Of a stretch of DNA of 37,406 nucleotides, positions 1 through 37,390 are shown one piece after another. The translations under genes and the position numbers were made by a program. This DNA comes from Haloimpatiens lingqiaonensis. Its GTDB lineage: Bacteria > Bacillota > Clostridia > Clostridiales > Clostridiaceae. Position 1 is the stretch's first letter, and each line of letters opens with the position of its first letter. Location: the NCBI RefSeq assembly GCF_901447495.1, contig NZ_CABDWS010000028.1:1-37406 (forward strand), given 5' to 3'. Below the pieces are notes generated by a model, which was not told where the DNA came from, searched no databases, and was given only the letters and a program-made list of their open reading frames with translations.

Positions 1-173
1 TTCAAACTCACTCGTTCCTCGTTCAGGCAATGAAAGCTTCTTAACGGGTATTCAAATTTGAAAACAAAGAATTTCTAAAGCTAGCTCAATAGTCTAAAAA
101 AATATATTTATTGTTCCCTTAAAATCAGATTTTTCAGTTCATGCATATATCATCACGGGGGGGACAGCCTACT

Positions 174-217
174 AAAGGATAATTTTCCGCCGCTTTGCTA
201 TGGAAAATCTTTAATCT
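174..217 (-). repeat. GATTTTCC...GGAAAAT hairpin arm (F module), reversed copy
   Basis: On the minus strand this reads TTAAAGATTTTCC, a short spacer, then GGAAAATTATCC. It is the same pattern as the copies at 1221-1262, 23571-23602 and 24419-24454. The arms can pair as a hairpin. No function is known; it is recognised only by recurrence. Confidence 0.6.
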
Positions 218-448: not shown

Positions 449-500
449 GATCTCTTAGCTTCAGTTGGAGTAAAAATTCCATCTAAAGCTAAGAGATCTG
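449..500. repeat. Palindromic module P (hairpin 2), copy 1
   Basis: Arms GATCTCTTAGCTT and AAGCTAAGAGATC pair perfectly over 13 bp, with a second pairing (TTGGA with TTCCA) inside. A diverged copy (about 74 bases aligned, including part of hairpin 1) lies in reverse orientation at 22365-22438. Confidence 0.7.
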
Positions 501-644
501 TTTATAAATAAGGGACTCATAATATTTTTTAGGCGGAGCCTTTCGAAAAGTTATATGATACTTATTAAAATAAAATAGTAATTAAAATTCCATTCATTTT
601 GCCGTAAGGCAATTGTTTATATAAATCTTAGTTTGTAGAAGAAA

Positions 645-1027: not shown

Positions 1028-1071
1028 TCCACAAATTCTAATTTAAGAAATTCCATAGGAATTTCAACATT

Positions 1072-1103
1072 AATTGATATTTGATATTTGATATTTAATA
1101 TTT
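1072..1103 (+). repeat. TGATATT heptamer array, plus orientation
   Basis: Four 7-bp units precede a GCTGGCTACCGCC arm. This is the same arrangement, inverted, as at 242-333. Confidence 0.8.
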
Positions 1104-1262
1104 CTATATTTTCGCTGGCTACCGCCAATAAAAGATTTTTTAAGCCCTTAAAAGAAAAGATATAACTACTCCATTTAATGAATCAGTTATACCTTTTCCC
1201 ACTATACCATTGCTTATATTTAATTAAAGATTTTCCGTAACGCAGTGGAGGAAAATCATCCT
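1103..1262 (+). repeat. Composite constant module ending in F arm, copy 2
   Basis: From about 1149 to 1262 this matches 24346-24454: AAGAAAAG, a TTTAATGAAYCAGTTATA block, CATATTTAATTAAAGATTTTCC and GGAAAATC in the same order and spacing. After the shared part the two copies continue with different tandem arrays. Confidence 0.7.
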
Positions 1263-1264
1263 TT

Positions 1265-1345
1265 CCTAGCACCTAGTACCCAGTACCTAGTACCTAATCT
1301 TTTACTTCTTACTTAATTGTCAATTGTCCATTGTCAATTGTCCCT
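1265..1345 (-). repeat. Three heptamer array types in succession
   Basis: On the plus strand TAGTACC units are followed by TTACTTC units and then GTCAATT units. On the minus strand these are TAGGTAC, TAAGAAG and TGACAAT types. It directly follows an F module. Confidence 0.75.
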
Positions 1346-1441
1346 TAGTTCTTAGCGTATTGTTCACAGTCCAAAATTTCAATTTTATCACGGAATTAAA
1401 GGCAGCTTTTTCCTACGGCACTTTCTTCACAATCTATTCTT

Positions 1442-2644: not shown

Positions 2645-2671
2645 AAAACTCCTAAAGGAGTTTTATCCTTC
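2645..2671 (-). terminator. T-module terminator downstream of the DUF523 gene
   Basis: On the minus strand GGATAAAACTCC, a short loop and GGAGTTTTT form a stem and T-run, starting about 30 bases past the DUF523 stop codon. The stop and hairpin are joined by a TGACAAT array. Confidence 0.65.
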
Positions 2672-2709
2672 ATTGTCAATTCTCAATTGTCAATTGTCAA
2701 TTGTCATTT
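2671..2709 (-). repeat. TGACAAT array overlapping the DUF523 stop codon
   Basis: On the minus strand the units read TGACAAT (three times), TGAGAAT, TGACAAT, then GAAGG and the T-module hairpin. The first TGA (2704-2706) is the stop codon of the upstream gene. Confidence 0.85.
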
Positions 2710-3153
2710 ATCAATTATTTCATCTGTAATAACTTCTATTCCATTTTGCAAAAGCAATTCTGCTGTAACTCCATTGCCTTTTATTTTGTTTCCTGTAAAA
2801 GTTCCATCATATATTAGTCCACACCCACAGGAAGGGCTTTTTGCTTTTAATATAGCTTTTTTAGCTCTAACCGCCTGTGCTATTTTTAGGGTTTCATAAG
2901 CTCCTTTTATAAATTCTTTAGTAGAATCTCCACCCTTTGGATTTATAAGTTTAGCACTTCCTTCTAATACCTCTTTTCCAGTGCCGCCTTTTATTTCATG
3001 GGGTATTCTAGGTGTTGAAAGTCCTCCCAATTGCTCTGGACAAACTGGTATAGCCTTACCTTCTTTAACAAGTTCTAAAACCTTCTGGTTTAGATTATTA
3101 CCACCACTGTACTTACAGTTTATTCCACAAAGACACGCACTAACAATTATCAT
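2704..3153 (-). CDS. DUF523 family protein (TudS-like)
   Basis: A 149-residue DUF523 protein. A characterised member of this family, TudS, is a 2-thiouracil desulfurase that uses an iron-sulfur cluster held by conserved cysteines. Here the N-terminal SACLCGINCKYSGG (residues 5-18; C7, C9, C13), VCPEQLGG around C38 and SPSCGCG near the end supply candidate ligands. The ATG at 3153 is preceded by GGAGGAAGGC. An upstream in-frame TTG overlaps that ribosome site and is rejected. The stop codon TGA is the first triplet of a TGACAAT repeat array. The family assignment is firm. The reaction is inferred from the family, since DUF523 proteins are not all shown to desulfurate thiouracil. Confidence 0.85.
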   Translation of the reverse strand: MIIVSACLCGINCKYSGGNNLNQKVLELVKEGKAIPVCPEQLGGLSTPRIPHEIKGGTGKEVLEGSAKLINPKGGDSTKEFIKGAYETLKIAQAVRAKKAILKAKSPSCGCGLIYDGTFTGNKIKGNGVTAELLLQNGIEVITDEIIDK

Positions 3154-3333: not shown

Positions 3334-3366
3334 GATTTCCTTTAGCCCTCTAAAGAAAATCCTCCT
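3334..3366 (+). repeat. F module, diverged copy, before the octamer array
   Basis: GATTTCCTTTAG and CTAAAGAAAATC pair as a hairpin and lead through CTCC into a CTAGCACA octamer array, exactly as at 23571-23640. Confidence 0.55.
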
Positions 3367-3418
3367 GCTCTAGCACACTAGCACACTGGCACACTAGCCC
3401 ACTATTTAACGCCCTCTA
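3367..3418 (-). repeat. TAGTGGGC octamer array at the 3' end of mutS2
   Basis: On the minus strand the mutS2 stop is followed by units TAGAGGGC, (GTTAAA), TAGTGGGC, TAGTGTGC, CAGTGTGC and TAGTGTGC. The stop codon at 3416-3418 is itself the TAG of the first unit. Comparable arrays end the genes at 6027 and 23317. Confidence 0.8.
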
Positions 3419-15988: not shown

Positions 15989-17329
15989 CTATCCAACTAG
16001 TATTTTATCCTCAGGATATTTAATTGAACTTTTCTTTTTATTTTTAGCTAATGCCAATGCTATAGTCAAAGGTCCTACCCTTCCTGCATACATGGTCAAA
16101 GCTAAAACTATTTTTCCTATTACTGTAAGTTTAGGCGTAAGTCCTAAAGTAAGTCCTACTGTAGCAAAAGCTGATGTAGCTTCATATAATAAGTACTCAA
16201 AAGGAAATCCTACTTCTGTTATTGACAATATCATAGTTACTGTTATTACTAAACCTAAACTTATTACAACAATGGCAAATGCTCTATAAACTATTTCCTT
16301 ATTTATTCTCTTCTTAAATATTTCCGTTTCTTCTTTTCCTTTTATAACAGAAACAACTGTCATAAGAAGCAATCCTGCTGTAGAAGTCTTAATACCACCT
16401 GCTGTAGACCCTGGAGAACCTCCTACAAACATCAATAGTATGGTTAAAAATATACCTGCTGTACTCATGGCAGAAGTAGATATAGAGTTAAACCCTGCTG
16501 TTCTAGGTGTTACCGCTGCAAAAAATGAAGATAAAATCTTTTCAAAAATGGATTTTCCTCTTAATGTTCCTGGATTATTGCTTTCAAATAGAAACATCAA
16601 TATGGTACCTACAACCACTAAAATTGCAGTAGCAGTAATTACAACCTTAGAATGTAATGACATTTTTCTTCTACGCTTATAATTATATAATTCTGCCCAA
16701 ACAAAAAAACCTAATCCACCTATCATTATAAGAAATGCTATAGTGATTATTACCACTGGATTATTAGCATAAGGTATTAAGCTATCTCCTGTTAAATCAA
16801 ATCCTGCATTACAAAAGGCAGATATGGAGTGGAATATACTAAAATATATACCCTTTCCTAAGCCATATTCTGGTATGAATTGCGTAGACAAGAGCAAAGC
16901 TCCCATGGACTGAATAAAAAAAGTAAAGAAAAGTACATACCTAGCTAATTTTACAATTCCCTGCAATGAGAAAGAATTCATAGCTTCTTGCATTACTAAC
17001 CTTTCCTTTAAAGTAATTCTTTTACCCAGTATCAATGCTATCATTGTTGCAAAGGACATAAAACCAAGTCCACCAATTTCAATAAGTACCATTATTACAG
17101 TTTTACCAAAATAGCTCCAGTGTACACTTGTATTTAAAGTAACAAGTCCTGTTACACATACTGCTGAGGTAGATGTAAATATACAATCTATAAATGGTGT
17201 TCTAACTCCAGTTCTAGATGCAATGGGTAAATTTAAAAGAATAGCTCCTGTAAATATAACTATTGCAAAGCCTATAGCTAATATTTGTACGGGAGTAAAC
17301 TTAGGTTTATGTTTTAATATTTCGGACAT
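15989..17329 (-). CDS. ktrB: Potassium transporter subunit KtrB (TrkH family)
   Basis: A 446-residue membrane protein with four membrane-pore-membrane repeats. The four selectivity-filter segments are recognisable: VCVTGL (57-62), NAGFD (174-178), TAGFN (277-281) and TVGLT (390-394). Between repeats lies the gate-loop sequence GGSPGSTAGGIKT (303-315), and near the end is the AGRVGP stretch (415-420). It imports K+, often coupled to Na+, under control of KtrA encoded immediately downstream. The start ATG at 17329 has GGGGTGAT ahead, and a near-consensus sigma-A promoter lies 54 bases upstream. Confidence 0.95.
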   Translation of the reverse strand: MSEILKHKPKFTPVQILAIGFAIVIFTGAILLNLPIASRTGVRTPFIDCIFTSTSAVCVTGLVTLNTSVHWSYFGKTVIMVLIEIGGLGFMSFATMIALILGKRITLKERLVMQEAMNSFSLQGIVKLARYVLFFTFFIQSMGALLLSTQFIPEYGLGKGIYFSIFHSISAFCNAGFDLTGDSLIPYANNPVVIITIAFLIMIGGLGFFVWAELYNYKRRRKMSLHSKVVITATAILVVVGTILMFLFESNNPGTLRGKSIFEKILSSFFAAVTPRTAGFNSISTSAMSTAGIFLTILLMFVGGSPGSTAGGIKTSTAGLLLMTVVSVIKGKEETEIFKKRINKEIVYRAFAIVVISLGLVITVTMILSITEVGFPFEYLLYEATSAFATVGLTLGLTPKLTVIGKIVLALTMYAGRVGPLTIALALAKNKKKSSIKYPEDKILVG

Positions 17330-17382
17330 TGTATCACCCCATTTTATGCCTATAAATTACTTTAAGCGATAATTATTCTATC

Positions 17383-17410
17383 ATTATATCACTTAAAATT
17401 TATTTGTCAA
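17383..17410 (-). promoter_or_regulatory. Sigma-A promoter of ktrBA
   Basis: TTGACA (17405-17410), a 16-base spacer and TATAAT (17383-17388), giving a leader of about 45 bases to ktrB. Confidence 0.8.
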
Positions 17411-17445
17411 AAGATATGAAATCCTTCTTTAGGCTTAAATAAAAA

Positions 17446-17468
17446 AAATGCGACACTATGCCGCATTT
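17446..17468 (-). terminator. Terminator of the infC-rpmI-rplT operon
   Basis: On the minus strand AAATGCGGCA and TGTCGCATTT pair and are followed by a T-run, starting five bases past the rplT stop codon. Confidence 0.9.
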
Positions 17469-17473
17469 TTATA

Positions 17474-17827
17474 TTATAAACTTTGTTTTGCTAATTCTAC
17501 TAATTCAGAGAATGCTTTTGGATCATTTATAGCTATTTCAGAAAGCATTTTTCTGTTCATATCTATTCCTGCAAGTTTTATTCCATTCATAAATCTTGAG
17601 TAAGAAAGACCATTCATTCTAGTAGCTGCATTTATTCTTGCTATCCATAATTTTCTGTAATCTCTCTTCTTTAATTTTCTTCCTATATATGCTTCTCTTA
17701 ATGCTCTTATAACTGATTGATTAGCAACTTTAAATAATTTGCTTCTTGAACCGTAGTATCCTTTTGCAAGTTTTAATACTTTTTTATGTTTTTTACGAGC
17801 ATTTACCGCTCTTTTAACTCTTGCCAT
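17474..17827 (-). CDS. rplT: 50S ribosomal protein L20
   Basis: A 117-residue L20 of normal length, very basic, beginning [19 protein letters not shown] with the long N-terminal extension that penetrates 23S rRNA, and the conserved [14 protein letters not shown] and NRKMLSEIA segments. It is needed for early 50S assembly. In Gram-positives it also represses its own operon by binding the infC leader. The ribosome site is AGGAGG. It is the last gene of infC-rpmI-rplT and ends at a strong terminator. Confidence 0.98.
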
Positions 17828-17859
17828 CTTAAAAACCTCCTTCTGCTTTAAGCTCTAAA

Positions 17860-18057
17860 CTATAGATATGGTAATAACTTCTTCATTACTTTTTCTTGTG
17901 ATTCAGATACGTATGAAGTTTGTCTTAAATTTCTCTTTGTTTTAGAGCTTTTTTTAGTTAATATGTGGCTTTTAAAAGCCTTAGCTCTCTTTAATTTTCC
18001 TGTTCCTGTCACTTTAAATCTTTTAGCTGCGCCTCTATGAGTTTTCATTTTTGGCAT
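17860..18057 (-). CDS. rpmI: 50S ribosomal protein L35
   Basis: A 65-residue L35 of standard size, starting [20 protein letters not shown] and ending [10 protein letters not shown]. It is a small basic protein of the large subunit. It lies between infC (19 bases upstream) and rplT (32 bases downstream) in the conserved order. The ribosome site GAGGAGG precedes ATG. Confidence 0.98.
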
Positions 18058-18076
18058 ACTAAATTCCTCCTCTCAA

Positions 18077-18595
18077 TTATGCTCTTTTTGGAGCTAAAAC
18101 CATTATCATATTTCTTCCTTCTAATTTAGCTTCCTTTTCTTTTATGCAAACATCTTCTAACAATTGATAGAAACTGTCTACTATTTTACGTCCTATATGT
18201 GAATAGTCTGCTTCTCTTCCTCTGAATCTAATAGTTACTTTAACCTTATTTCCAGCTTCCAAGAACTTCCTTGCATTCTTTGCTTTTACTTCCAAATCAT
18301 GCTCTTCAATGGTAGGACTTAATCTTACTTCTTTAATGTTTATAATATTTTGTTTTTTCTTAGCTTCCTTTTCCTTTTTGGACTGTTCGTAAATAAATTT
18401 GCCATAATCCATTATTCTACATACTGGTGGATTAGCATTTGGCGCAATCATAACTAAATCCAATTCCTTTTCTTCTGCTATGGCTAAAGCCTCTCTAGAT
18501 GAGATTATTCCTAATTGTGAACCATCATCACCTATGACCCTTATTTCCTTTGCTCTTATGTCTTCATTTACTAAATGGCTTTTATCTTTAATAAT
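18077..18595 (-). CDS. infC: Translation initiation factor IF-3, probable AUU start
   Basis: IF-3 of about 172 residues. The N-domain ([18 protein letters not shown]), linker ([12 protein letters not shown]) and C-domain ([19 protein letters not shown]... [20 protein letters not shown]) are complete. It binds 30S, rejects non-canonical start codons and prevents subunit joining. No ATG exists before the conserved start. The sequence is AGGAGGTGAAT, then ATT three times. A GTG overlaps the ribosome site and is unusable. IF-3 genes often start at AUU, AUC or AUA, which lets IF-3 limit its own synthesis. I place the start at the second ATT (18595), eight bases after GGAGG. The first (18598) or third (18592) is possible. 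Confidence 0.93.
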
Positions 18596-18624
18596 AATAT
18601 TCACCTCCTGGTGTTATTAAACAT

Positions 18625-18733
18625 ATAATAAAAGGACGGCATTTGCCGTCCTCTATATATCACATAAATATACTTATCATTTACCTTACTAGCTGTGCTG
18701 TAAGGTGAGAAACGGCTGTTTCTACTTTAAATT
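18625..18733 (-). promoter_or_regulatory. infC operon leader with attenuator (L20-type leader candidate)
   Basis: On the minus strand the leader holds hairpins AGAAAC/GTTTCT (18708-18723) and CCTTAC/GTAAGG (18684-18705). A strong terminator, GGACGGC/GCCGTCC (18634-18651), follows with TTTTATTAT, all before the infC ribosome site. A terminator ahead of infC fits the known L20 autoregulatory leader of low-GC Gram-positives. I see the hairpins and position but have not matched an Rfam model. Confidence 0.7.
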
Positions 18734-18759
18734 AAAATCTCTATTAAGTTAACAATGTT

Positions 18760-18788
18760 ATTCTACTACATTAATACTTCTGTGTCAA
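18760..18788 (-). promoter_or_regulatory. Sigma-A promoter of infC-rpmI-rplT
   Basis: TTGACA (18783-18788), a 17-base spacer and TAGAAT (18760-18765). Transcripts would start near 18753 and include the attenuator. Confidence 0.85.
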
Positions 18789-18824
18789 CACTAAATTATA
18801 AACTTTAATTCGTAATTTAACTTA

Positions 18825-18913
18825 TTCAACTTTCAGTTATAAAATAAAAATATAAAATTTAAAAACCCTCATTAATCTAATGTAGAGCTTGAACTTTATG
18901 TGCGAAAGTTGAA
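18825..18913. mobile_element. MITE-like element, short copy (89 bp)
   Basis: Left end TTCAACTTTC-AGTTATAAAAT and right end TGCGAAAGTTGAA are inverted repeats. The right part TGTAGAGCTTGAACTTTATG resembles TGTAGAACTTAAAATTTATA of the copy at 22331-22493. The interior is reduced to a few tens of bases. It sits between the infC promoter and the 3' end of thrS. Confidence 0.65.
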
Positions 18914-18961
18914 TACCTTACTATTATTGTTAATGTACAATTTTATATTGGTAACTTTATA

Positions 18962-20875
18962 TTATAAACTGTTTACTTTATTATTTATTTCTTCTTTTAT
19001 CTTACCTATAAATTCATCTATAGTGCTAGTTCCTAAATCTCCCTCTTTTCTACTTCTAATTGCTATTTTGTTCTCTGTCATTTCCTTATCACCAATCACA
19101 AGCATATAAGGAATTTTTTGAAGCTGAGCTTCTCTTATCTTATATCCTATCTTTTCATTTCTAAAATCAATTTCTACTCTTATGCCCTCTTCCTTTAACT
19201 TAGCTTCTAGCTCTTTACAGTATTCTAAGCTTCTATCAGTTATATTCATAACCTTAACTTGAACTGGTGCTAACCATGTTGGGAATGCTCCTGCAAAATG
19301 TTCTATAAGTATGCCTATGAATCTTTCAATACTTCCAAACACAACTCTGTGAACTGTTACTGGTCTGTGTTTTTCTCCATCTGCTCCTACATATGAAAGA
19401 TCAAATCTCTCTGGTAATTGGAAATCTAGCTGAATTGTTCCGCATTGCCAAGTTCTTCCTATGCAATCTCTCAAATGGAAATCTATCTTTGGACCATAGA
19501 AAGCTCCATCACCTTCATTAACTTTATACTCAAGTCCTGCTTTTTCAAGAGCAGCTCTCAATCCATTAGTTGCAGCTTCCCAATCCTCATCACTACCCAT
19601 AGAATTTTCTGGTCTTGTTGAAAGTTCTACAAAATATTGGAATCCAAACATTTTATAGAATTCATCTATTAAATTAACTACTCCAAGTACTTCATCTGTT
19701 ATTTGATCCTTAGTCATAAATATATGGGCATCGTCCTGAGTAAAGCATCTAACTCTCATAAGTCCATGTAATGCACCCGAAAGCTCATGTCTGTGAACAA
19801 GTCCTAATTCACCTAATCTTAAAGGTAAATCTCTATAAGAATGCATTCCATCCTTGTAAACTAGCATAGCTCCTGGACAATTCATTGGTTTTACTGCATA
19901 ATCTTCCTCATCAATTTTTGTAAAATACATATTTTCTTTGTAATGATCCCAGTGTCCTGATTGATGCCATAAAGCTTCATTTAATATAATTGGAGTTTTA
20001 ATTTCATCATATCCTGCTTTTCTATGCACTTCTCTCCAATAATCTTCAAGTATATTTCTAAGAATCATTCCCTTTGGATAAAAGAATGGGAATCCTGGAC
20101 CCTCATCATGTATTGCAAATAATCCAAGCTCCTTACCTAGTTTTCTATGATCTCTCTTTTTAGCTTCCTCTAGCATATTAATATATTCATCAAGCTCGCT
20201 TTGTTTTGTAAAGGCTGTTCCATAAATTCTTTGAAGCATTTGCTTATTTTCATCACCTCTCCAATAAGCTCCTGCTAAAGATAATAATTTTATAGCTTTT
20301 ACTTTCTTTGTAGACGGTACATGGGGCCCTGCACATAAATCCACAAACTCACCTTGTCTATAGAAAGAAATTACTGCATCCTCTGGTAAATCCTCTATAA
20401 GTTCTACCTTGTAATCTTCGCCTTTTTCCTTCACGTATTTTATTGCTTCTTCTCTTGGAAGTTCAAATCTCTCTAACTTTAAATCTTCCTTAACTATCTT
20501 TTTCATTTCTTTTTCTATATTTTCCATTATTTCTGGTGTAAAAGAAAAATCCGCTTCAAAATCATAATAAAATCCTGTATCTATAGCTGGTCCTATAGCT
20601 AATTTTACTTCTGGATATAATCTTTTTACTGCTTGAGCTAAAATATGTGATGCAGTATGTCTTAAAGCCCATCTTCCATCTTCATCTTCAAAAGTTGCTA
20701 TTTCTAAAGTACAATCTTCATTTATCTCAGTCATAAGTTCAGCTTTTTCTCCATTTACTTTAGCAGCTAATGCTTTTTTGTAAAGAGCTGGACTTATTTT
20801 CATAGCAATATCACTAACTTTGGTTCCTTTTGCTACCTCTATAACTTTTCCATCCTTTAATGTTACTTTAACCAT
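18962..20875 (-). CDS. thrS: Threonyl-tRNA synthetase
   Basis: A 637-residue class II synthetase of normal length. An N-terminal TGS domain covers about 1-60. The editing domain follows, with HTASH (73-77) and later CAGPHVP, whose histidines and cysteine handle mis-charged Ser. The catalytic core has KPMNCPGAM (zinc cysteine), the motif 2 region GLVHRHELSGALHGLMRVR, and motif 3 near HRVVFGSIERFIGI. The C-terminal anticodon-binding domain starts about 540. The ATG at 20875 follows AAAGGAGG. Upstream lies a T-box leader with an ACC (Thr) specifier and a consensus promoter. Confidence 0.98.
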   Translation of the reverse strand: MVKVTLKDGKVIEVAKGTKVSDIAMKISPALYKKALAAKVNGEKAELMTEINEDCTLEIATFEDEDGRWALRHTASHILAQAVKRLYPEVKLAIGPAIDTGFYYDFEADFSFTPEIMENIEKEMKKIVKEDLKLERFELPREEAIKYVKEKGEDYKVELIEDLPEDAVISFYRQGEFVDLCAGPHVPSTKKVKAIKLLSLAGAYWRGDENKQMLQRIYGTAFTKQSELDEYINMLEEAKKRDHRKLGKELGLFAIHDEGPGFPFFYPKGMILRNILEDYWREVHRKAGYDEIKTPIILNEALWHQSGHWDHYKENMYFTKIDEEDYAVKPMNCPGAMLVYKDGMHSYRDLPLRLGELGLVHRHELSGALHGLMRVRCFTQDDAHIFMTKDQITDEVLGVVNLIDEFYKMFGFQYFVELSTRPENSMGSDEDWEAATNGLRAALEKAGLEYKVNEGDGAFYGPKIDFHLRDCIGRTWQCGTIQLDFQLPERFDLSYVGADGEKHRPVTVHRVVFGSIERFIGILIEHFAGAFPTWLAPVQVKVMNITDRSLEYCKELEAKLKEEGIRVEIDFRNEKIGYKIREAQLQKIPYMLVIGDKEMTENKIAIRSRKEGDLGTSTIDEFIGKIKEEINNKVNSL

Positions 20876-20984
20876 TTTAAATCCTCCTTTTTCTTTATTT
20901 ATTCCATGACCATGCTACCTCTCCATGTATTTGGAGAATAATCATAGTTAAGCCTCTGGATAATAATCAAAAATGTTTTAGCAA

Positions 20985-21240
20985 AAAATAATTAAACTCA
21001 TCCCATATATGGGACGAGTATATCGCGGTTCCACCCAAATTGATAATAAAATAAACTTCAATTATCCACTTGAAGCCTTTAACGCTGGCAACGGCAATGC
21101 CTACTAACTTCAGCACGCTACTCAAAGGTGGTTTTCAACAATTCTTATTCAAAGGATCTTTCAGCCTATGAATCCTTCTCTCTGAGAACAGTATACTGTT
21201 TACTCTTCCTTTTCACAGTATTTTAATTAAAATATCTAAA
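20985..21240 (-). promoter_or_regulatory. Thr T-box riboswitch upstream of thrS
   Basis: On the minus strand the T-box sequence GGGTGGAACCGCG is at about 21025-21037. A terminator stem CTCGTCCCAT/ATGGGATGAG (20997-21018) is followed by TTTAATTATTTTTT. In the specifier region GAAA is followed by ACC (21130-21132) and AC. ACC is a Thr codon. The AG-bulge stretch AGAGAG lies further 5', as expected in Stem I. Confidence 0.95.
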
Positions 21241-21249
21241 ATTTATTAA

Positions 21250-21278
21250 AGTATATTACTTTTAATTTAAAATGTCAA
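21250..21278 (-). promoter_or_regulatory. Sigma-A promoter of the thrS T-box transcript
   Basis: TTGACA (21273-21278), a 17-base spacer and TATACT (21250-21255). It lies about 80 bases past the ytxC stop codon. Confidence 0.85.
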
Positions 21279-21359
21279 TAGATACTAATTATTTTTTCTG
21301 ATTATTTCCGATTATTTCTGCTCCATTTTTATAATTATCCTGAATTATTCTAATTGCTA

Positions 21360-22268
21360 CTAATTATTTTTCACATTTTTACTTAATAATTTTCTGCACT
21401 GTTCACACCCATCGCATAAGGTAACCCTGCTTTCAAATACATTTTCTATGGTATTTATAAACTCTTTATTTTTACAATTATTCGCTCCATGTATAATAAT
21501 TTTTTTAGGTGAACTTGTTACAAGCCCACTAATTATCACATCCTCCATATCAACAGCTTCAGCAATATCCTCCGCAAAACTTTCTTTTTTAAATTTGTTC
21601 ATAATATTATTTTCTTTCTCATCTTTTATGATATAGTCACCTTTATTATCTATGAATATATGTAACTTATTTATTTTATTGTCCTGCATTCCTACAAAAT
21701 ATTTAAGAAGTTTTATAAACTCATCATATTCCTTCTCTACCATAATACTTTCAATTATTTTATCAATTATTAAGCATACTTTTTTCTTAATTTCACGTAT
21801 TCTAAAGCGTAAATATCCATGTATATTTATTAAATTATTTTCCTTTATAACATTTAAGATATCTTCCTTTATTTCATTCATTCTGTTAGAAAAATAAACA
21901 GATTTTTCATCATTAATCCCTTGAAAATTAGTAAGTATATTAAACAAACTTATCTTCACTTCTTCTATTTCTTCCTTTCCTAGAAAGAAATAATCCTCAT
22001 TAAGTATATAATCTACTTCCATATAATAAAACTCCAATATTATATGATTATAAATTATTTCCATTAAATTGTAATAGATAATATCCATGGTTTTCTTAGG
22101 TAAATCACTATTATCCGAAGAAAATATTTTCAGTACATTAAATTCCTCCTCTTTCTCTTTATATATTCCTATATGTATATCTTTATTTCTTAGTCTTTCT
22201 TCAATTTCATTAATATCATATATAAGTTCTTCCTTTTCTCCTTTAAAAACTATTGTAAGTAGCAACAT
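21360..22268 (-). CDS. ytxC: YtxC-like sporulation-associated protein
   Basis: A 302-residue protein assigned to the YtxC family (putative sporulation protein) by overall character, by the YLRFRIREIKKKVCLIIDKII segment, and by its place next to thrS, as in Bacillus subtilis. It is rich in I, E and K, with alternating helix-like stretches and no clear signal peptide. Near the C-terminus it has CDGCEQC (C285, C288, C291), a possible metal-binding cluster. No biochemical function is known. I chose ATG at 22268, after GTGGGTGA; a GTG three codons upstream overlaps that site. The family call is from memory, not a search. Confidence 0.75.
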   Translation of the reverse strand: MLLLTIVFKGEKEELIYDINEIEERLRNKDIHIGIYKEKEEEFNVLKIFSSDNSDLPKKTMDIIYYNLMEIIYNHIILEFYYMEVDYILNEDYFFLGKEEIEEVKISLFNILTNFQGINDEKSVYFSNRMNEIKEDILNVIKENNLINIHGYLRFRIREIKKKVCLIIDKIIESIMVEKEYDEFIKLLKYFVGMQDNKINKLHIFIDNKGDYIIKDEKENNIMNKFKKESFAEDIAEAVDMEDVIISGLVTSSPKKIIIHGANNCKNKEFINTIENVFESRVTLCDGCEQCRKLLSKNVKNN

Positions 22269-22330
22269 TGGAATCACCCACTTTCATTTATAGTGAGAAT
22301 ATTTTTGTTTAAATTCAATTAGTAGCTTAA

Positions 22331-22493
22331 TTCAACTTTCGCAGTTATAAAATAAAAATATAAACAGAGCTCTTAGCTTCAGATGGAGTTTTTACTCCAA
22401 CTGAAGGTTAGAGATCGTTATCCAGAGACATAGCTGCCTTTTACTTCTTACCTTGTATAGTGTAGAACTTAAAATTTATATGCGAAAGTTGAA
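22331..22493. mobile_element. MITE-like element with palindromic cargo (163 bp)
   Basis: Perfect 13-bp terminal inverted repeats TTCAACTTTCGCA and TGCGAAAGTTGAA, no coding capacity. The interior holds module P in reverse orientation (22365-22438) and a short TTACTTCTTACC remnant. Copies with the same ends but other interiors lie at 18825-18913 and 35351-35507, and a left end alone at 26835-26875. Confidence 0.75.
22365..22438 (-). repeat. Palindromic module P, copy 2, inside the MITE-like element
   Basis: On the minus strand this begins GGCAGCTATGTCTCTGGATA and ends AAGCTAAGAGCTCTG. It aligns with 427-500 base for base, with about nine differences. It keeps hairpin 2 but only the 3' arm of hairpin 1. 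Confidence 0.75.
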
Positions 22494-22520
22494 TAATTTA
22501 TATTATCACTTTATTTTTTA

Positions 22521-22548
22521 TTTACAAATTTAAGTCTTGTGATAATAT
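22521..22548 (+). promoter_or_regulatory. Sigma-A promoter of the GME-like gene
   Basis: TTTACA (22521-22526), a 16-base spacer and TAATAT (22543-22548), about 60 bases before the start codon. Confidence 0.7.
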
Positions 22549-22606
22549 AAGTTATAAGTTTATATTTTACAAAATAAATTCATTTATGTATGAAAAGGTG
22601 ATTTTT

Positions 22607-23317
22607 ATGAAAAAATTTATTGTTGTAGATTTTAGAATAGATAAAGAAGAAAAGGATAATTTACAAAAGTTAGGCTATGAAGTATTATGTTGTCCCCCTA
22701 GCCAAGTATTATATAGCGCAGTATGTGGTCACCCTGATATGCTTTTGCACTTTTTAAATAATAACACTATAGTAGTACACAAAAACACTCCTAGAAATTT
22801 TATAGACACACTAGAAAAAATGAATCTGGAAGTTATTCTATCAAAAAATCCTTTAGAGAAAAGTTATCCTTACGATATTGGCTTAAATGCAGTGAATGTA
22901 GGCGATATATTTATTCACTACACAAAGTATACAGATCCATCTATACTTAATAATATAGAAGGCAAAAAAATTTTAAATGTAAAACAAGGATACACTAAAT
23001 GTTCCACTGCAATTATAAATTCTAATGCCTTTATAACTTCTGACCCTTCCATTAAAAATGTATTGGAAAAAGAAAATAAAGATGTATTATTCCTCCCACC
23101 AGGTGATATATCTCTACCCGGTTTAGACTATGGATTTATTGGTGGAACTTGCGGTTTTTTAGAAGAAGGCTTTTTAGCCTTTTACGGTGATTTAAATTAC
23201 TATAAATACGGAAGGGAAGTTATGAGTTTTTTAGAAAAATATCAGGTTAAACCTGTTTTTCTTAGGAAAGGTCCTCTTGTAGATAGAGGAAGCTTATTCA
23301 GTGGGCTAGTGGGCTAG
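22607..23317 (+). CDS. DUF6873/GME-fold-like protein of unknown function
   Basis: A 236-residue cytosolic protein, the only plus-strand gene in the window. It resembles the clostridial proteins annotated as DUF6873 family GME fold; the fold is shared with arginine deiminase and amidinotransferases. Segments GYEVLCCPPSQVLYSAVCGHPDMLLH, VKQGYTKCSTAII and GFIGGTCGFL (quoted here only to mark conserved His and Cys positions) could form an active site, but no reaction is known. The ATG at 22607 follows AAGGTGA; an earlier ATG seven codons upstream lacks a ribosome site. The last residues (SGLVG) and the TAG stop are encoded by a GTGGGCTA octamer array, so the original C-terminus may have been replaced. 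Confidence 0.7.
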   Translation: MKKFIVVDFRIDKEEKDNLQKLGYEVLCCPPSQVLYSAVCGHPDMLLHFLNNNTIVVHKNTPRNFIDTLEKMNLEVILSKNPLEKSYPYDIGLNAVNVGDIFIHYTKYTDPSILNNIEGKKILNVKQGYTKCSTAIINSNAFITSDPSIKNVLEKENKDVLFLPPGDISLPGLDYGFIGGTCGFLEEGFLAFYGDLNYYKYGREVMSFLEKYQVKPVFLRKGPLVDRGSLFSGLVG

Positions 23318-23330
23318 TGGGCTAGTGGCG
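23299..23330 (+). repeat. TAGTGGGC octamer array forming the 3' end of the GME-like gene
   Basis: GTGGGCTA is repeated three times and then GTGGCGG. The array encodes the final five residues of the upstream gene and supplies its TAG stop. The gene strand reads TAGTGGGC, the same orientation as at mutS2 and the U32 gene. Confidence 0.85.
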
Positions 23331-23512: not shown

Positions 23513-23570
23513 ATAAATCAACGGACCCACACCTAAAAAATCTTTAAGCGCTAAACTTCTATAATTAAAG

Positions 23571-23602
23571 ATTTTCCGTAGCATAGCGTAGGAAAATCCT
23601 CC
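23571..23602 (+). repeat. F module, copy 3, before an octamer array
   Basis: TTAAAGATTTTCC, a short spacer and GGAAAATCCTCC, leading into CTAGCACA octamers. Confidence 0.65.
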
Positions 23603-23605: not shown

Positions 23606-23672
23606 TCTAGCACACTAGCACACTGACACACTAGCCCACTAATATCTAGCCCTCTGACACACTAGCCCACTA
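23606..23672 (-). repeat. TAGTGTGC octamer array
   Basis: On the plus strand CTAGCACA, CTAGCACA, CTGACACA, CTAGCCCA and a second shorter run after AATAT. It is nearly the same run as 3367-3404. It does not touch a protein gene but abuts the tRNA terminator. Confidence 0.8.
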
Positions 23673-23706
23673 AAAAAAGAACTATGCTACGCATAGTTCT
23701 TTTTTT
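23672..23706 (-). terminator. Terminator of the tRNA operon
   Basis: On the minus strand AAAGAACTATGC and GCATAGTTCTTT pair with a 3-base loop and a T-run, directly after the CCA of tRNA-Cys. Confidence 0.92.
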
Positions 23707-24345: not shown

Positions 24346-24454
24346 AAAAGAAAAGCTATACCTAGTTTGTTTAATGAACCAGTTATAGCTTTTCCAAATA
24401 TCCCATTACTCATATTTAATTAAAGATTTTCCGTAACGCAGTGAAGGAAAATCC
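24346..24454 (+). repeat. Composite constant module ending in F arm, copy 4
   Basis: Matches 1149-1262 along its length (AAAAGCTATA, TTTAATGAACCAGTTATA, CATATTTAATTAAAGATTTTCC in the same order). The 24178-24582 interval has no gene. Apart from this module and the following array I see nothing recognisable in it. Confidence 0.7.
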
Positions 24455-24459
24455 TCCTT

Positions 24460-24486
24460 AACTCTTACTTCTTACTTCTTACCTTC
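24460..24486 (-). repeat. TTACTTC heptamer array after the F module
   Basis: Plus-strand CTTACTTCTTACTTCTTACC, followed by CTCCACAAATTCC, the same flank as after the array at 1010-1027. Confidence 0.7.
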
Positions 24487-24582
24487 TCCACAAATTCCGA
24501 TTTTAAATTTTAAATTTTAAATTAAAAACATTTATTTATCTAGATAAAGCTTAAGACTTATGCTCGAAAATTCAGTTAATAA

Positions 24583-30963: not shown

Positions 30964-32643
30964 CTATTTATTTCTTCCTTCTGTGTATGCATATTTGAAT
31001 TCAGATGTTCCAAATAGAGGACTCATTAAATTCTTAACGTATTTAGCTCTGTATGTGTTTCTCTTTCTGTATACTGTTGGAGCTATAGCTGCATCTTCAT
31101 ATACTAATACTTTTTCTGCTTCTTTATATGCTTCAAGTCTTTGTTTTTCATCCATTGTAGATTGAGCTTTTTTAACTAACTCATCATATTTCTTATTAGA
31201 CCATCCATTATTTACAACTCCTGCTCCAGTTACCCACATGTCAAAGAATGTATTTGGATCGTTGTAGTCTCCTGTCCAAGCTGCACCAGCTATTTGATAA
31301 TCTAACTCATGAGTTCTTTTTTGGAATATTGGCCATTCAGCATATTCAGCTTTTACATTAACACCTAATGCTTTTTTGAACATTTGTTGTTCATATTCTG
31401 CATATGTTCTATTCCATTGGTCTGTACCACTTTCAAGTATTGTAACTGTTAACTTAGCTGGATCTGGATCCATTCCAAGTTCTTTTAATCCTTTTACTAA
31501 CAATGCTTTTGGATCTGGGTTTTCTTCTTTTAGTTTTTTAATTGGCTCTTCTCCAACTAATTCTCTAAAGTCTTTTCCACCTAATTGTAATGATGGTGGT
31601 GCCCATCCATATGCTGCTTCAGTTGTTCCATGGAATATTACATTTGACATATCTTCTCTTGTTATTGCAAGTGAGAATGCCTTTCTTATATTAGCATTGC
31701 TAAATACTTTATCCTTAGTATTAAAGAATGTATAGTTTGCTGATGGATCATATCCTTTTATGTTGTTGAATTTTCCAGTAGCATCAAATTTCTTTATCCA
31801 TTCTGGTTTAGTAACTCCTGCTGAGTCTATGTCTCCATTGTATAATGAATTATATCTTGCATTTTGATCTTTTATTATTTTTAAGTTAACTTTTGATAAT
31901 TTAACCTGTTCTTTATCCCAATACTTTTCATTCTTTTCTAGAACTACTTGGTTTTGGTGAACCCATTCTTTTATAACGAAAGGTCCGCAGAATACCATTG
32001 TGTTTGCTTCTGAACCATATTTGTCACCAGCTTTTTCAATGATATCTTGTCTTTGTGGATGCATTACTTTGAAATAAGTTAAATCAAGGAAGTATGCACA
32101 TGGTTGTTTTAATGTAATTTTTAAAGTCTTATCATCTTCTGCTTTTACCCCAACTGAATCTAAAGCAGCCTTTCCTTGAGTAGCTTCATCTGCATTTTTA
32201 ATTGGTGATAATAAGAATGCATAAGGTGATGCAGTTTTAGGATCTAAAGTTCTTTTTATACCATACTCATAATCCTTAGCTGTAACTTTTTTTCCATCTG
32301 ACCATTCATAGTCTCTTAAATGGAATGTCCACTCTGTACCATCTTCATTATGTTCCCATTTTTCAGCACCAGCAGCTTTTATAACGTCCTTACCATCTTT
32401 ATCTTGCTCAACTCTAGTAAGTCCTTCCATAACTTCTGCTAATACTTGTGAAGAATAAGTGTCAGATCCCTTTGATGGGTCTAATGTTTTTGGTTCAGCA
32501 CCTAATAATAAGTTTAGATATTGATCCTTGTCCATTTTAGAACCAGATGCACTATCCTTACTTCCAGAGCCGCAACCAATTAATGCAGTTGAAGCAACTA
32601 CACTAGCTGTTAATAATAAAGCTAACATCTTCTTGCTTTTCAC
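30964..32643 (-). CDS. oppA: Oligopeptide-binding lipoprotein OppA (operon copy)
   Basis: A 559-residue solute-binding lipoprotein of SBP family 5. The signal peptide (KKMLALLLTASVVAS) ends at lipobox LIGC with C24 as the lipidated residue. The mature part starts with MDKDQYLNLLLGAEPKTLDP, the usual family 5 entry, and the FNTKDKVFSNANIRKAFSLA region is well kept. It binds peptides outside the membrane and hands them to OppBC. The start is GTG at 32643, after AAAGGGGGA. Two paralogues lie immediately upstream. This is the copy in line with oppBCDF, with a promoter about 420 bases ahead. Confidence 0.95.
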   Translation of the reverse strand: MKSKKMLALLLTASVVASTALIGCGSGSKDSASGSKMDKDQYLNLLLGAEPKTLDPSKGSDTYSSQVLAEVMEGLTRVEQDKDGKDVIKAAGAEKWEHNEDGTEWTFHLRDYEWSDGKKVTAKDYEYGIKRTLDPKTASPYAFLLSPIKNADEATQGKAALDSVGVKAEDDKTLKITLKQPCAYFLDLTYFKVMHPQRQDIIEKAGDKYGSEANTMVFCGPFVIKEWVHQNQVVLEKNEKYWDKEQVKLSKVNLKIIKDQNARYNSLYNGDIDSAGVTKPEWIKKFDATGKFNNIKGYDPSANYTFFNTKDKVFSNANIRKAFSLAITREDMSNVIFHGTTEAAYGWAPPSLQLGGKDFRELVGEEPIKKLKEENPDPKALLVKGLKELGMDPDPAKLTVTILESGTDQWNRTYAEYEQQMFKKALGVNVKAEYAEWPIFQKRTHELDYQIAGAAWTGDYNDPNTFFDMWVTGAGVVNNGWSNKKYDELVKKAQSTMDEKQRLEAYKEAEKVLVYEDAAIAPTVYRKRNTYRAKYVKNLMSPLFGTSEFKYAYTEGRNK

Positions 32644-33064
32644 TTTTAAGTTCCCCCTTTAATACGTTTTTTATATATTTATTTTGCAGTTTATATTTTA
32701 ATAATGTAGTATAAACTACCTTATTAATCTAAATTTATATCTATCTATTATATCTATCTACTTTTATCTATCACCTATGTACTTCTTACCTTTTACCTAT
32801 TACTTCTTATTCTTACTTTTTCCCTTTATCTCAATCAATAAAATCACTTCATGTATATATTCAATTTTTATTTACAAAATTCCTTCTAAAACTTATACTT
32901 TTATTTAAATTTAATTTAATGTTTTAAATTTTTAGTCAATTAATGTTATTTCCGTGATTTTTAAAATACACTAAAATAAAATCCATACCCCTAGAGCATA
33001 TATTAAAAATTTAGAAAACAATTAGAAATTTGAATTTACATTCTTCTGTTTTTTCATTTTTTAC
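32644..33064 (-). other. Long oppA leader, gene-free
   Basis: About 420 bases between the inferred promoter and the oppA start. It is AT-rich and contains TATC-TATC runs (32738-32775) and TTACTTC/TTACC-type heptamers (32780-32818). I see no riboswitch that I recognise. Confidence 0.55.
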
Positions 33065-33093
33065 ATATTATCATAATTTTTTTTAAATGTCAA
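33065..33093 (-). promoter_or_regulatory. Sigma-A promoter of oppABCDF
   Basis: TTGACA (33088-33093), a 17-base spacer and TAATAT (33065-33070). It gives an unusually long leader. Confidence 0.8.
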
Positions 33094-33356
33094 ATTTACA
33101 CTTTACCTTTGTAAAGCTCTACATGTGCATTTATATTCATACCTTTTATCTATATTTATGAATATACTCAAGTATTTCAAATTCCATGTATATGCCCACA
33201 ACATACATTTATGCAGGTTTGTTTATTGTACATATTTCAAAAACATTTTTCATATTTAGTATTTATACAGAATATTAATTCAATACATTTTTTAAAAGCA
33301 AATATAATTTATGAAATATAGTTAATTTATTCATTCTATTTTTAGATATTAGAAAT

Positions 33357-33393
33357 CAAAAAAATGATAGCGGAAAATTCCACTATCATTTTT
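33357..33393 (-). terminator. Terminator of the second oppA
   Basis: On the minus strand AAATGATAG..GGAA and TTCCGCTATCATTT pair and are followed by a T-run, about 20 bases past the stop codon. Confidence 0.9.
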
Positions 33394-33411
33394 ATTTAAT
33401 TTTTTATATTA

Positions 33412-35103
33412 TTATCTACCAGAAGTGTAAGCATATTTACATTCTGTTACACCAAATAATGGAGTCATTAAATCCTTAACATATTTACGTCTATAAGTAT
33501 TTCTCTTAGAGAAAGTAGTTGGAGCCACAGCAGCATCTTCATATAATAATACATTTTCAGCTTCTTTATAAGCTTCAAATCTTTCTTTTTCATCTAATGA
33601 ACTCATAGCTTTCTTAACTAAATCGTCGTATTTCTTATTTGACCAACCTGTTGGAACTATTCCAGCACCTGTCATCCACATGTCAAAGAATGTGTTAGGG
33701 TCATTATAGTCTCCTGTCCAAGCCATACCTGCTACTTGATATTGCATTTCATCTGTTCTCTTTTGGAATATTGGCCATTCAACATATTCAGCTTTTAAAT
33801 TAACTCCTAAAGTCTTTTTATACATTTGTTGTTGATATTCTGCATATGTTCTATACCATTGATCTGTTCCAGCAAATAGCATAGTAACTGTTAATTTACT
33901 TGGATCTGGATCTAAACCAGCCTCTTTTAATCCTTCAGAAAGTAAAGCTTTAGCATCACTATTTTCTTCAGCTAATTTTTTAATTGGTTCTGCTTTTACA
34001 GTTTCTCTAAAATCCTTACCATTCAATTGTACTGATGGTGGACACCAAGAATATGCTGGAGCATTTCTTCCGTTAAATATAACGTTTGCCATATCATCTC
34101 TTGTTATACCAAGTGAGAATGCTTTTCTAACCTTTGCGTTAGAGAATAGTTTATCCTTTTGGTTAAAGAATGTATATCCTGTTGTTGGTAAGTATCCTTG
34201 TATGTTTATGAATTTTCCAGTACTATCAAACTTCTTAATCCATTCTTGTTTTGAAACTCCCATAGAGTCTATATCACCATTGTATAATGAGTTGTATGCT
34301 GCTGTTTGGTCTTTTATGATTTTCCAATTAACCTTTGAAAGTTTTACTTTATCTTTATCCCAATATTTATCGTTCTTTTCCATAACTATTTGGTTTTGAT
34401 GTGTCCAGTTTGTGATTTTAAATGGTCCACAATATACCTCTAGTGTATTTGCTTCTGTACCATATTTATCACCATGTTTTTTAACTATATCTTCTCTTTG
34501 AGGTAAGAATAATTTAAAATATGTTAAATCCAAGAAGTATGGACATGGTTGTTTTAATGTAAATTCTAGAGTTTTATCGTCTACAGCCTTAACTCCTAAT
34601 TGGTCAGCACTTCCTTTTCCAGCATTATATTCATCGGCACCTTTTATTGGTGATAATAAGAATGCGTAGTTAGAACCAGTTTCTGGTGCCAAAACTCTTT
34701 TTATTGAATATTCGAAATCTTTTGCTGTTACAGGTTTTCCATCAGACCAGTTATAGTCTCTTAAAGTAAATGTCCAAACTGTTCCATCTTCATTATGTTT
34801 CCATTCCTTTGCCCCTGCAGGTTTTATAACGTCTTTACCATCTTTATCTTGTTCAACTCTTGTTAATCCTTCATATACCTCTCCAAGTATTTGAGAAGAA
34901 TAAACGTCATTTGATTTTGCAAGGTCTAAAGATTTTGGTTCAGCCCCCAAGTTAAAGTTTAAATACTGATCCTTGTCCATTTTTTCTGCTGATGCTGAAT
35001 CTTTACTATTATCAGTTGTTTTTTTCTCCCCACATCCAGCTATAGCAGATGAAAGTAGAACAGTACTTCCTAACACTAAAGCTAATAATTTCTTACTTTT
35101 CAT
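33412..35103 (-). CDS. oppA: Oligopeptide-binding lipoprotein OppA paralogue 2
   Basis: A 563-residue family 5 solute-binding lipoprotein. The signal peptide and lipobox IAGC put C24 at the same place as in the other two copies. It shares MDKDQYLNFNLGAEPKSLD and most of its sequence with the copy at 35622-37319, more so than with the operon copy. Amino acids near the ligand pocket differ from place to place, which could change peptide preference. It has its own promoter (35267-35295) and terminator, so it can be made apart from oppBCDF. The ATG at 35103 follows GAGGGGGC. Confidence 0.93.
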   Translation of the reverse strand: MKSKKLLALVLGSTVLLSSAIAGCGEKKTTDNSKDSASAEKMDKDQYLNFNLGAEPKSLDLAKSNDVYSSQILGEVYEGLTRVEQDKDGKDVIKPAGAKEWKHNEDGTVWTFTLRDYNWSDGKPVTAKDFEYSIKRVLAPETGSNYAFLLSPIKGADEYNAGKGSADQLGVKAVDDKTLEFTLKQPCPYFLDLTYFKLFLPQREDIVKKHGDKYGTEANTLEVYCGPFKITNWTHQNQIVMEKNDKYWDKDKVKLSKVNWKIIKDQTAAYNSLYNGDIDSMGVSKQEWIKKFDSTGKFINIQGYLPTTGYTFFNQKDKLFSNAKVRKAFSLGITRDDMANVIFNGRNAPAYSWCPPSVQLNGKDFRETVKAEPIKKLAEENSDAKALLSEGLKEAGLDPDPSKLTVTMLFAGTDQWYRTYAEYQQQMYKKTLGVNLKAEYVEWPIFQKRTDEMQYQVAGMAWTGDYNDPNTFFDMWMTGAGIVPTGWSNKKYDDLVKKAMSSLDEKERFEAYKEAENVLLYEDAAVAPTTFSKRNTYRRKYVKDLMTPLFGVTECKYAYTSGR

Positions 35104-35266
35104 TTAAAAGCCCCCTCATTATTTATATTTATGTATTATAAAATTAATAATTATAATTATTAATTTTAAAATCTAATTTAAACATTACTGCTTTTATCTA
35201 CCAATGATTTTATTGGAATAATTAACTTCAATAGGAATCACTTACTAATTTTTGTTTGTTTTTATA

Positions 35267-35295
35267 AATATATCATACACTTTTACAATTGTCAA
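35267..35295 (-). promoter_or_regulatory. Sigma-A promoter of oppA paralogue 2
   Basis: TTGACA (35290-35295), a 17-base spacer and TATATT (35267-35272), about 160 bases before the start codon. Confidence 0.82.
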
Positions 35296-35350
35296 ATTTT
35301 TTTTACAACTTTGAGACACTTTTTTTACTTATTTTTTTTATAATTAATTT

Positions 35351-35507
35351 AGCCTTCGCAGTTATAAAATAAAAATATACACTTTGTAGGTAAGTAGTAC
35401 TCCCTACTTATTACCTAGCACCTAGCACCTAGTACCTAGAACCTTATCTCTTGCCTTATCTCTTGCCTTATATAGTGTAGAACTTAAAATTCATATGCGA
35501 AGGTTGA
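35351..35507. mobile_element. MITE-like element with heptamer cargo (157 bp)
   Basis: Left CCTTCGCAGTTATAAAATAA and right TGTAGAACTTAAAATTCATA, then TGCGAAGG, are the same ends as 22331-22493. The inner 8 bp of the terminal repeats carry a matching change on both sides (CCTTCGCA/TGCGAAGG in place of CTTTCGCA/TGCGAAAG). The interior is a TAGGTAC-type array (TACCTAG on the plus strand, 35413-35436) and a 12-base repeat (CTTATCTCTTGC). It lies between the promoter of oppA paralogue 2 and the terminator of paralogue 3. Confidence 0.75.
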
Positions 35508-35563
35508 GTAATTAATTTATTAATAATAAGATAGCAGCTTTACATTTTATTTTATAATAACAA

Positions 35564-35598
35564 AAGAGCACCTTAAATTACTCTAAGGTACTCTTTTT
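35564..35598 (-). terminator. Terminator of the third oppA
   Basis: On the minus strand AGAGTACCTTA and TAAGGTGCTCT pair and are followed by TTTTG, about 30 bases past the stop codon. Confidence 0.88.
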
Positions 35599-35621
35599 AA
35601 TAATTACTTTTTATTTACTTT

Positions 35622-37319: not shown

Positions 37320-37361
37320 TTTAATGCCCCCTTTTGAAATATATTGAAATTTATTAATGTC

Positions 37362-37390
37362 AATATTCCATATTATCAAAAATATGTCAA
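37362..37390 (-). promoter_or_regulatory. Possible promoter of oppA paralogue 3
   Basis: TTGACA (37385-37390), a 17-base spacer and AATATT (37362-37367). The -10 is only partly consensus. A second TTGACA lies downstream, nearer the gene. Confidence 0.5.

Follow-up and report, generated by a model that had tools for sequence, protein, structure and literature searches.

The DNA analysed here, referred to as the window, is contig C28 of the Haloimpatiens lingqiaonensis draft genome (3.29 Mb, 184 contigs) and is 37,406 nucleotides long. The nearest named hslO loci belong to Clostridium, with 74% protein identity. At the gathering threshold, Rfam models identify a T-box, tRNA and an L20 leader in the window, and nothing at its tandem arrays. 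Three tandem paralogues (30964-37379, 67-87% DNA identity over 300-base stretches) appear by eye to encode peptide transporter substrate-binding proteins. The arrays are associated with short palindromes, among them F, a 29-bp palindrome (GATTTTCC-N13-GGAAAATC) that is the core of a repeated block. The features of the window are the following:

24346..24424, plus strand: at the hslO/tRNA locus, the stretch of the F arm upstream of its palindrome, with hairpin GAAAAGCTATAC...GTTATAGCTTTTC; missing at this locus from the sister species G002
24425..24453, plus strand: F palindrome, GATTTTCC-N13-GGAAAATC, located by the genome-wide pattern
24454..24457, plus strand: joint CTCC (CTCCTT with the next TT)
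24458..24485, plus strand: heptamer array TTAACTC TTACTTC TTACTTC TTACCTT
1149..1228, plus strand: upstream part of a second F arm, including a TATAAC hairpin, located by repeat comparison
1229..1257, plus strand: F palindrome
1258..1265, plus strand: joint ATCCTTTC after F
1266..1342, plus strand: array of eleven heptamers in a single 7-base register, drawn from the unit families CTAGTAC, TTACTT and ATTGTC: CTAGCAC CTAGTAC CCAGTAC CTAGTAC CTAATCT TTTACTT CTTACTT AATTGTC AATTGTC CATTGTC AATTGTC
1343..1436, plus strand: right half of a large nested hairpin (TTAGTTCTTAGCGTATTG...GCACTTTCTTCACAA)
181..209, minus strand: F-type palindrome, one stem base off, joined to the large hairpin
1..180: copy of the large nested hairpin in reversed orientation, truncated where the contig begins
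265..330, plus strand: AAATATC heptamer array
1071..1103, plus strand: array of TTGATAT (= AAATATC) heptamers that precedes the F arm at 1149
23570..23598, plus strand: F palindrome, loop GTAGCATAGCGTA
23607..23673, plus strand: CTAGCACA-type octamer array behind joint CTCCATCT
3334..3361, plus strand: palindrome other than F, GATTTCCTTTAG...CTAAAGAAAATC; its joint, CTCCTG, resembles that of F
3370..3404, plus strand: CTAGCACA octamer array behind the palindrome at 3334
2645..2664, plus strand: E hairpin AAAACTCC-TAAA-GGAGTTTT, joint ATCCTT
2672..2716, plus strand: ATTGTCA heptamer array behind the E hairpin

The first-pass annotation had described a constant block followed by different arrays at different loci, and the block is real: 1150-1288 and 24346-24484 are a repeat pair with 81% identity. 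The units reported behind it are present as well, F at 24425-24453 being followed by CTCC-TTAACTC-TTACTTC-TTACTTC-TTACCTT and F at 1229-1257 by three unit families, eleven heptamers in an unbroken 7-base register. A shared CTCC end, also proposed, is not found, the copy at 1229 terminating GGAAAATCATCC instead; here the array sits where other copies carry the left half and core of the large hairpin. As for the octamers said to follow shorter F arms at 23571 and 3334, F at 23570-23598 has CTAGCACA-type octamers behind it, but the element at 3334 is a different palindrome. G002 contains a very similar palindrome-joint-octamer sequence to that at 3334 (a likeness of sequence, not necessarily of locus), and its hslO locus has a TTACTTC-type array and the same right flank, without F.

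Searching the H. lingqiaonensis genome for GATTTTCC-N(5-30)-GGAAAATC gives 63 matches, and all of the 50 matches listed have a 13-base spacer; the reversed control has no match in the whole genome. A version with a spacer one base too long gave 3 matches in the window with up to 3 mismatches, against 0.24 expected, and none genome-wide when matched exactly. Six of the 39 genomes searched, H. lingqiaonensis included, have any match to the F pattern: there are 61 matches in G002 and 1 in G001 (both of the same genus), the latter a pattern count only, and the matches viewed in G003 and G038 are other sequences. Within the loop, positions 12 and 18 are A-T in 47, G-C in 15 and otherwise in 4 of 66 H. 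lingqiaonensis copies, and A-T in 29 and G-C in 26 of 58 G002 copies; such paired changes are as would be predicted for a hairpin under constraint. Convergent genes border 20 and divergent genes 2 of the 44 intergenic gaps that contain F, compared with 42 and 50 among all 265 gaps of at least 100 bp in the same stretches (genes being mechanical ORFs), indicating that F is often located at the 3' ends of genes. The F arm (114 bases) has no match among plasmid and phage records at E 1e-5, and one loop form of F has no exact match among viral contigs.

What follows F was tabulated for 66 copies in H. lingqiaonensis (50 of the 63 pattern matches plus 16 inexact copies, with at most 2 stem mismatches) in 29 stretches picked for holding F, 587 kb including the window, and for 58 copies in 1.56 Mb of G002, partly picked for F and partly tiled; classes were assigned by regular expressions, and at L033:6071 and L124:5922 by hand. 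The H. lingqiaonensis followers are a nested hairpin (21 copies), TTACTTC units (18), CTAGCNCN octamers (14), CTAGTAC units (12) and CAATTGT units (1), and the numbers in G002, in the same order, are 52, 2, 4, 0 and 0 (p = 3e-11 by Fisher's test of arrays against the hairpin, from copies that are related and not independent). With 63 pattern matches genome-wide, the objection that only a few copies exist fails. Several types of array do follow the arm, as the first-pass annotation held, but the commonest single follower is not an array: it is a nested hairpin of approximately 260 bp, only parts of which lie inside the window. The large hairpin has only sub-threshold matches to Rfam, of which the best, to a miRNA family (46.3 versus 119 bits), is taken as chance. 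Exact whole-genome counts, which are independent of the choice of samples but include overlapping matches within one array, are 24 in H. lingqiaonensis versus 0 in G002 for three ATTGTCA units, 12 versus 0 for TAGTACCTAGTACCTAG, 42 versus 0 for AATATCAAATATCAAATATC, and 11 versus 6 for three TTACTTC units. Much of the follower variety consists of a few subfamilies that have been copied around.

Loci of H. lingqiaonensis and G002 were compared where their unique flanks align (flank identity roughly 77-92%), taking as rows those with F on both sides and omitting F copies without a like-oriented G002 partner. There are 21 such rows, representing 20 partners because L018:2243 and L018:2533 share one; L018:11971 has two G002 candidates, of which the one nearer the shared gene was used. 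Sixteen rows were measured, and L023:1101, L016:4516, L024:17005, L020:2899 and L123:11544 were compared by class alone. The follower class agrees in 16 rows, including all four with octamers in both species, and differs in five. A CTAGTAC array in H. lingqiaonensis corresponds to a large hairpin in G002 at C4:69769 (L020:9798) and L126:13078, and octamers correspond to a large hairpin at L020:2405, L018:11971 and L023:1101, the last being anchored by its array-side flank only. The counter-proposal that each locus keeps one array type thus fails in this comparison, which is of two sister species, not of strains.

The clearest switched locus, C4:69769, is a chimera at a fixed site. Its F arm is 0.87 identical to the ortholog, with none of 65 own-genome paralogs closer and 4 of 57 other G002 copies slightly closer (0.88 at best), whereas 13 of 16 own-genome paralogs are closer than the ortholog to its right arm. 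It is the one locus at which the arm has cleanly been kept and the array changed. For the F arms of three more of the switched loci, 18, 23 and 42 of 65 own-genome paralogs are closer than the ortholog, so whole-element replacement, or loss followed by re-insertion, is possible there; at L126:13078, the right arm has 15 of 16 own-genome paralogs closer than the ortholog. The large hairpin is homogenized within the genome: in five of six ortholog pairs, 9 or 10 of 10 own-genome paralogs are closer than the ortholog, and in the sixth pair none is (the script passed over two more pairs). The hslO locus and L024:828 have an array in both species and an F arm in H. lingqiaonensis alone, and at L027:14628, L028:15038, L032:2473 and L018:9223, for example, no counterpart of the H. 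lingqiaonensis element was seen in G002.

Wherever they are present in the 12 CTAGTAC copies, CTAGTAC, TTACTT and ATTGTC units are in fixed mutual register; in the TTACTTC class the register is kept by most units, not all. The distance from F to the word TTGGCG, found in 5 of the 12 CTAGTAC copies, is 93, 93, 107 or 121 (2 mod 7) and in one case 61 (5 mod 7), and of the 16 distances found from F to the next constant word in the TTACTTC class, 10 are 53, 60, 67 or 74 (4 mod 7) and 6 have other values, which indicates that array length mostly changes by whole units. Arrays of period 7 number 189/Mb (111 arrays) in the H. lingqiaonensis stretches chosen for F, 25/Mb (9 in 360 kb) in 18 others picked by position without a listed F and therefore biased low, and 4/Mb in G002 stretches taken by tiling (3 in 800 kb); by the same rule, none was found in approximately 780 kb around hslO in 80 loci. 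In H. lingqiaonensis, periods 5, 6 and 9 occur at 0-17/Mb and period 4 at 63-94/Mb in every set, so that period 7 exceeds periods 5, 6 and 9, though less markedly where no F is listed. The arrays are tandem, intergenic and over-represented relative to other periods, as are bacterial heptamer SSRs and LSSRs.

Different followers at different loci, together with the differences between orthologs, suggest that these elements behave as swappable modules. The interpretation to which we give slightly better than even credence is that they are mosaic, non-coding, REP/MITE-like intergenic elements, the modules of which are reshuffled by ectopic recombination while the arrays are resized by units. The proposed modules are short palindromes (F and unrelated ones), a short joint in which TCC is usual (often as TCCTT), and one of two followers, a tandem array of 7- or 8-bp units or a long nested hairpin; the elements are often situated between convergent genes. 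Reshuffling may result chiefly from ectopic recombination or gene conversion among the numerous dispersed copies, hairpins and arrays providing the shared homology that marks where an exchange starts and ends, and slippage or unequal exchange could change array length by whole units. New copies and nested insertions would arise by transposition of small palindromic elements, and the array types seen in H. lingqiaonensis and not in G002 would have spread after the split through older element sites. Swapping of arrays, as the first-pass annotation suggested, is supported by five kinds of follower on one arm, mixed combinations of arm and follower, and 5 of 21 ortholog rows that differ. Follower variety, switched loci, one chimera, homogenization and mostly unit-wise length change are matters of observation; the enzymes and the direction of change are what we infer.

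It is rather unlikely that transposition alone, in which mobile palindromes insert beside arrays or within each other and arrays are never exchanged, produced these arrangements. Insertion of this kind would account for the arrays of L024:828 and the hslO locus, which are present in G002 without F, and is illustrated at L240, where two copies of a Y1 transposase region provide a filled and an empty site, flanked by ATAAA, of a double-hairpin element of approximately 136 bp that also occurs inside mosaics. This repeat (window 372-505 and 22360-22441; L240 15258-15393) has 50 matches over 80 bp in the H. lingqiaonensis stretches searched. However, the arrays of C4:69769 and L126:13078 are bracketed by an F arm and an outer arm, both of which are present in G002 too and enclose a large hairpin at the same site, so transposition alone requires a loss plus a gain at these loci. 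Furthermore, no target-site duplication is assignable to F, and visual inspection of 16 paired copies of the large element revealed none at their ends, which resemble ATAAGAATATATTGTGAAG and CTTCACAATATATTCTTAT in several G002 copies (TIR-like, by eye); TCCCC at L024:828 is a possible but ambiguous duplication.

H. lingqiaonensis has seven matches to the Y1 transposase family (PF01797). F is absent from the stretches read around six of them, and the seventh match, a broken fragment, has one F copy at a distance of 1.4 kb; in the stretches read, none of the seven is flanked by the repeat as a RAYT-type gene would be, and the repeats near two of them are other elements, not F. A Y1 transposase is not supported as the mover of F, which shows no linkage to Y1 genes at the loci that were read. 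No heptamer arrays were found in the flanks of four IS200-type copies in G002. A reverse transcriptase of family RVT_1 was rejected as the maker of arrays because the H. lingqiaonensis draft genome has no RVT_1 match at E<=0.001, the same threshold giving 7 in G001 and 2 in G002. Telomerase-like addition and a REP-type transposase are therefore unsupported, and the idea that arrays are regenerated from a template-like end, put forward in the first-pass annotation, finds no direct support.

That ordinary subfamilies suffice, each pairing of hairpin and array having arisen once and been copied around with slippage but no exchange, is improbable, although array type is strongly associated with upstream class, the 16 unchanged ortholog rows are as such copying would leave them, and heptamer repeats with slippage have long been described (accessible parts of PMC4692102 and PMC4679880). 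When the copies were clustered by upstream sequence (8 H. lingqiaonensis copies being singletons), 11 of 12 CTAGTAC copies fell in class U5 and 12 of 18 TTACTTC copies in class U4. Within H. lingqiaonensis, however, class U5 has four follower classes (10, 11, 4 and 3 copies), U3 has two (10 and 3) and U4 has two (1 and 12), mixed combinations which indicate that arm and follower have recombined; in G002, just one arm class has two followers (U5: 19 and 2). A single left side, F with a CTAGTAC array, runs into several right contexts. The chimeric C4:69769 likewise argues against subfamilies without exchange.

Reshuffling by ectopic recombination leaves one pattern that extends beyond F. The four bases after the F stem are CTCC in 26, ATCC in 19 and others in 21 of 66 H. 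lingqiaonensis copies, and ATCC in 42, CTCC in 13 and others in 3 of 58 G002 copies. The succession hairpin, TCCTT, array was found in 58 cases (a few of them plainly chance) among 3781 occurrences of TCCTT in the H. lingqiaonensis stretches, as compared with 7 to 22 cases for each of eight control pentamers. The hairpins so joined are unrelated in sequence (F, AAAACTCC, AATTTTTC, CATAATTTCA and others) and bear the same arrays; the joint leads to four array types, and F, AAAACTCC and AATTTTTC each have more than one. Recombination through the hairpin cannot by itself account for one array behind sequence-unrelated hairpins; of all the findings, their common joint is the chief one left unexplained by plain recombination, and some process may operate at the base of the hairpins.

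Such joints were sought in other Clostridiaceae genera at 16 array loci in twelve genomes, taken from exact matches in 194 genomes. Nine ATTGTCA loci from 7 genomes were read, and 6 of them, from 4 genomes, show a palindrome, TCC no more than a few bases behind it and the array after that (four joints by script rule and two by eye; three in G186); a hairpin with TCC was found at 10 of 6400 random positions in the same loci. None of 7 TTACTTC loci (5 genomes) has the TCC joint; a strong hairpin lies at a distance of 2 bases in two of them, and a weaker one at 4 bases in a third. Hairpin-TCC-heptamer joints that recur in other genera offer a searchable signature.

A quite improbable explanation is that an enzyme or replication process acting at the tagged hairpin base ((A/C)TCC; GGAK on the other strand) adds or rebuilds arrays, which would agree with the TCCTT joint shared by families F, E, G, K and others and its four array types, with the ATTGTCA joints of other genomes, and with the single 7-base register of the CTAGTAC class, but is opposed by the lack of an RVT_1 match, by the absence of F from the stretches read around six of seven Y1 matches, by the 0 of 7 TTACTTC loci with a TCC joint, and by the fact that the joint and first units could be an inherited end of the array. 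A bolder form of the idea, also improbable, is a Clostridiaceae-wide system in which palindromes tagged at the base with GGA(G/T) would be the docking sites at which a single-strand nuclease or repair process, dedicated to this task, builds or replaces 7- and 8-bp arrays; if this were true, unrelated hairpins would acquire the same array units in register.

As mosaic elements reshuffled by recombination, these repeats resemble several known kinds. MITEs are non-coding, hairpin-forming elements with inverted ends; the H. lingqiaonensis elements are likewise non-coding and hairpin-forming, and the ends of the large one look TIR-like in several G002 copies, but a target-site duplication can be assigned neither to it nor to F. 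In cyanobacteria, very small mobile repeated elements, as reportedly described by Elhai in 2008, are small dispersed repeats within or beside tandem heptamers. REP sequences are characterized in the accessible part of their description as intergenic, high-copy palindromes tagged GTAG or CGTC at one end (PMC3733652). To judge from the same portion of that text, F elements are like REP/BIME in being short, high-copy, intergenic palindromes (29 bp, within the 20-40 bp range, with 63 pattern matches) that have a fixed end tetranucleotide and form mosaics, but differ in that the tag is mostly CTCC or ATCC (GGAG or GGAT on the other strand) instead of GTAG or CGTC, no dedicated transposase flanked by F was found, and the tagged end joins 7- or 8-bp arrays.

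Heptameric repeats of Xanthomonas and Nostoc are intergenic 7-bp tandem arrays, many per genome, and those of Xanthomonas vary in length and sequence among related species while remaining mostly between the same genes, according to the available sections of PMC4692102; TAACTGA repeats are known from Beggiatoaceae (PMC4679880, and counted also in PMC4853749, each available in part). H. lingqiaonensis is similar in having many intergenic 7-bp tandem arrays, but differs from what those partial texts present (PMC4692102, PMC4679880) in having several unit families in one register, attached to palindromes via a recurrent joint; attachment to a constant hairpin was not found in the accessible portions of either account. 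Multicopy elements of four or five tandem units of 7 or 8 bp, a likeness to those of H. lingqiaonensis, are presented for Geobacter metallireducens as putative regulator sites or RNA elements in the consulted part of PMC2700814, in which array exchange behind a constant arm was not found. No report of hairpin-joined heptamer arrays in Clostridium was found by titles and abstract openings, in a search outside of which most subscription journals lie. End-tagged palindromes and intergenic heptamers are thus known kinds of repeat, and what differs here is the coupling of one arm, several arrays, a recurrent joint and array switching at orthologous loci. The reasons for the accumulation of heptamer arrays in bacteria, and the way in which intergenic repeats turn mosaic, are in our judgement old open questions; with loci comparable between sister species and arm and array scored separately, exchange, slippage and insertion become distinguishable locus by locus.

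Several other differences between the two genomes were noticed. Where H. lingqiaonensis has F with a CTAGTAC array (L125 9740-10330), G002 (L176) has, on visual inspection, a likely insertion sequence that contains a transposase ORF. Beside the hslO locus, G002 has an insertion of approximately 310 bp (L139 17552-17861) that the window lacks; its ends are inverted (GATTA...CCACAA), and 9-10 bases (ACTATATRAT) are apparently duplicated. Similar copies are in L143, L213 and L176. The stretch orthologous to window positions 16860-23324 is present in three G002 contigs, C2, C4 and C11 (L156, L150 and L139), in each case at or near a contig end, representing either assembly overlap or true repeats. 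Finally, a stretch that adjoins a Y1 transposase gene in L219 (from 1927) recurs without the gene in the L128 mosaic (from 6613), where it is likely to be a deletion relic of a transposable element, presumably of the IS605-like type.
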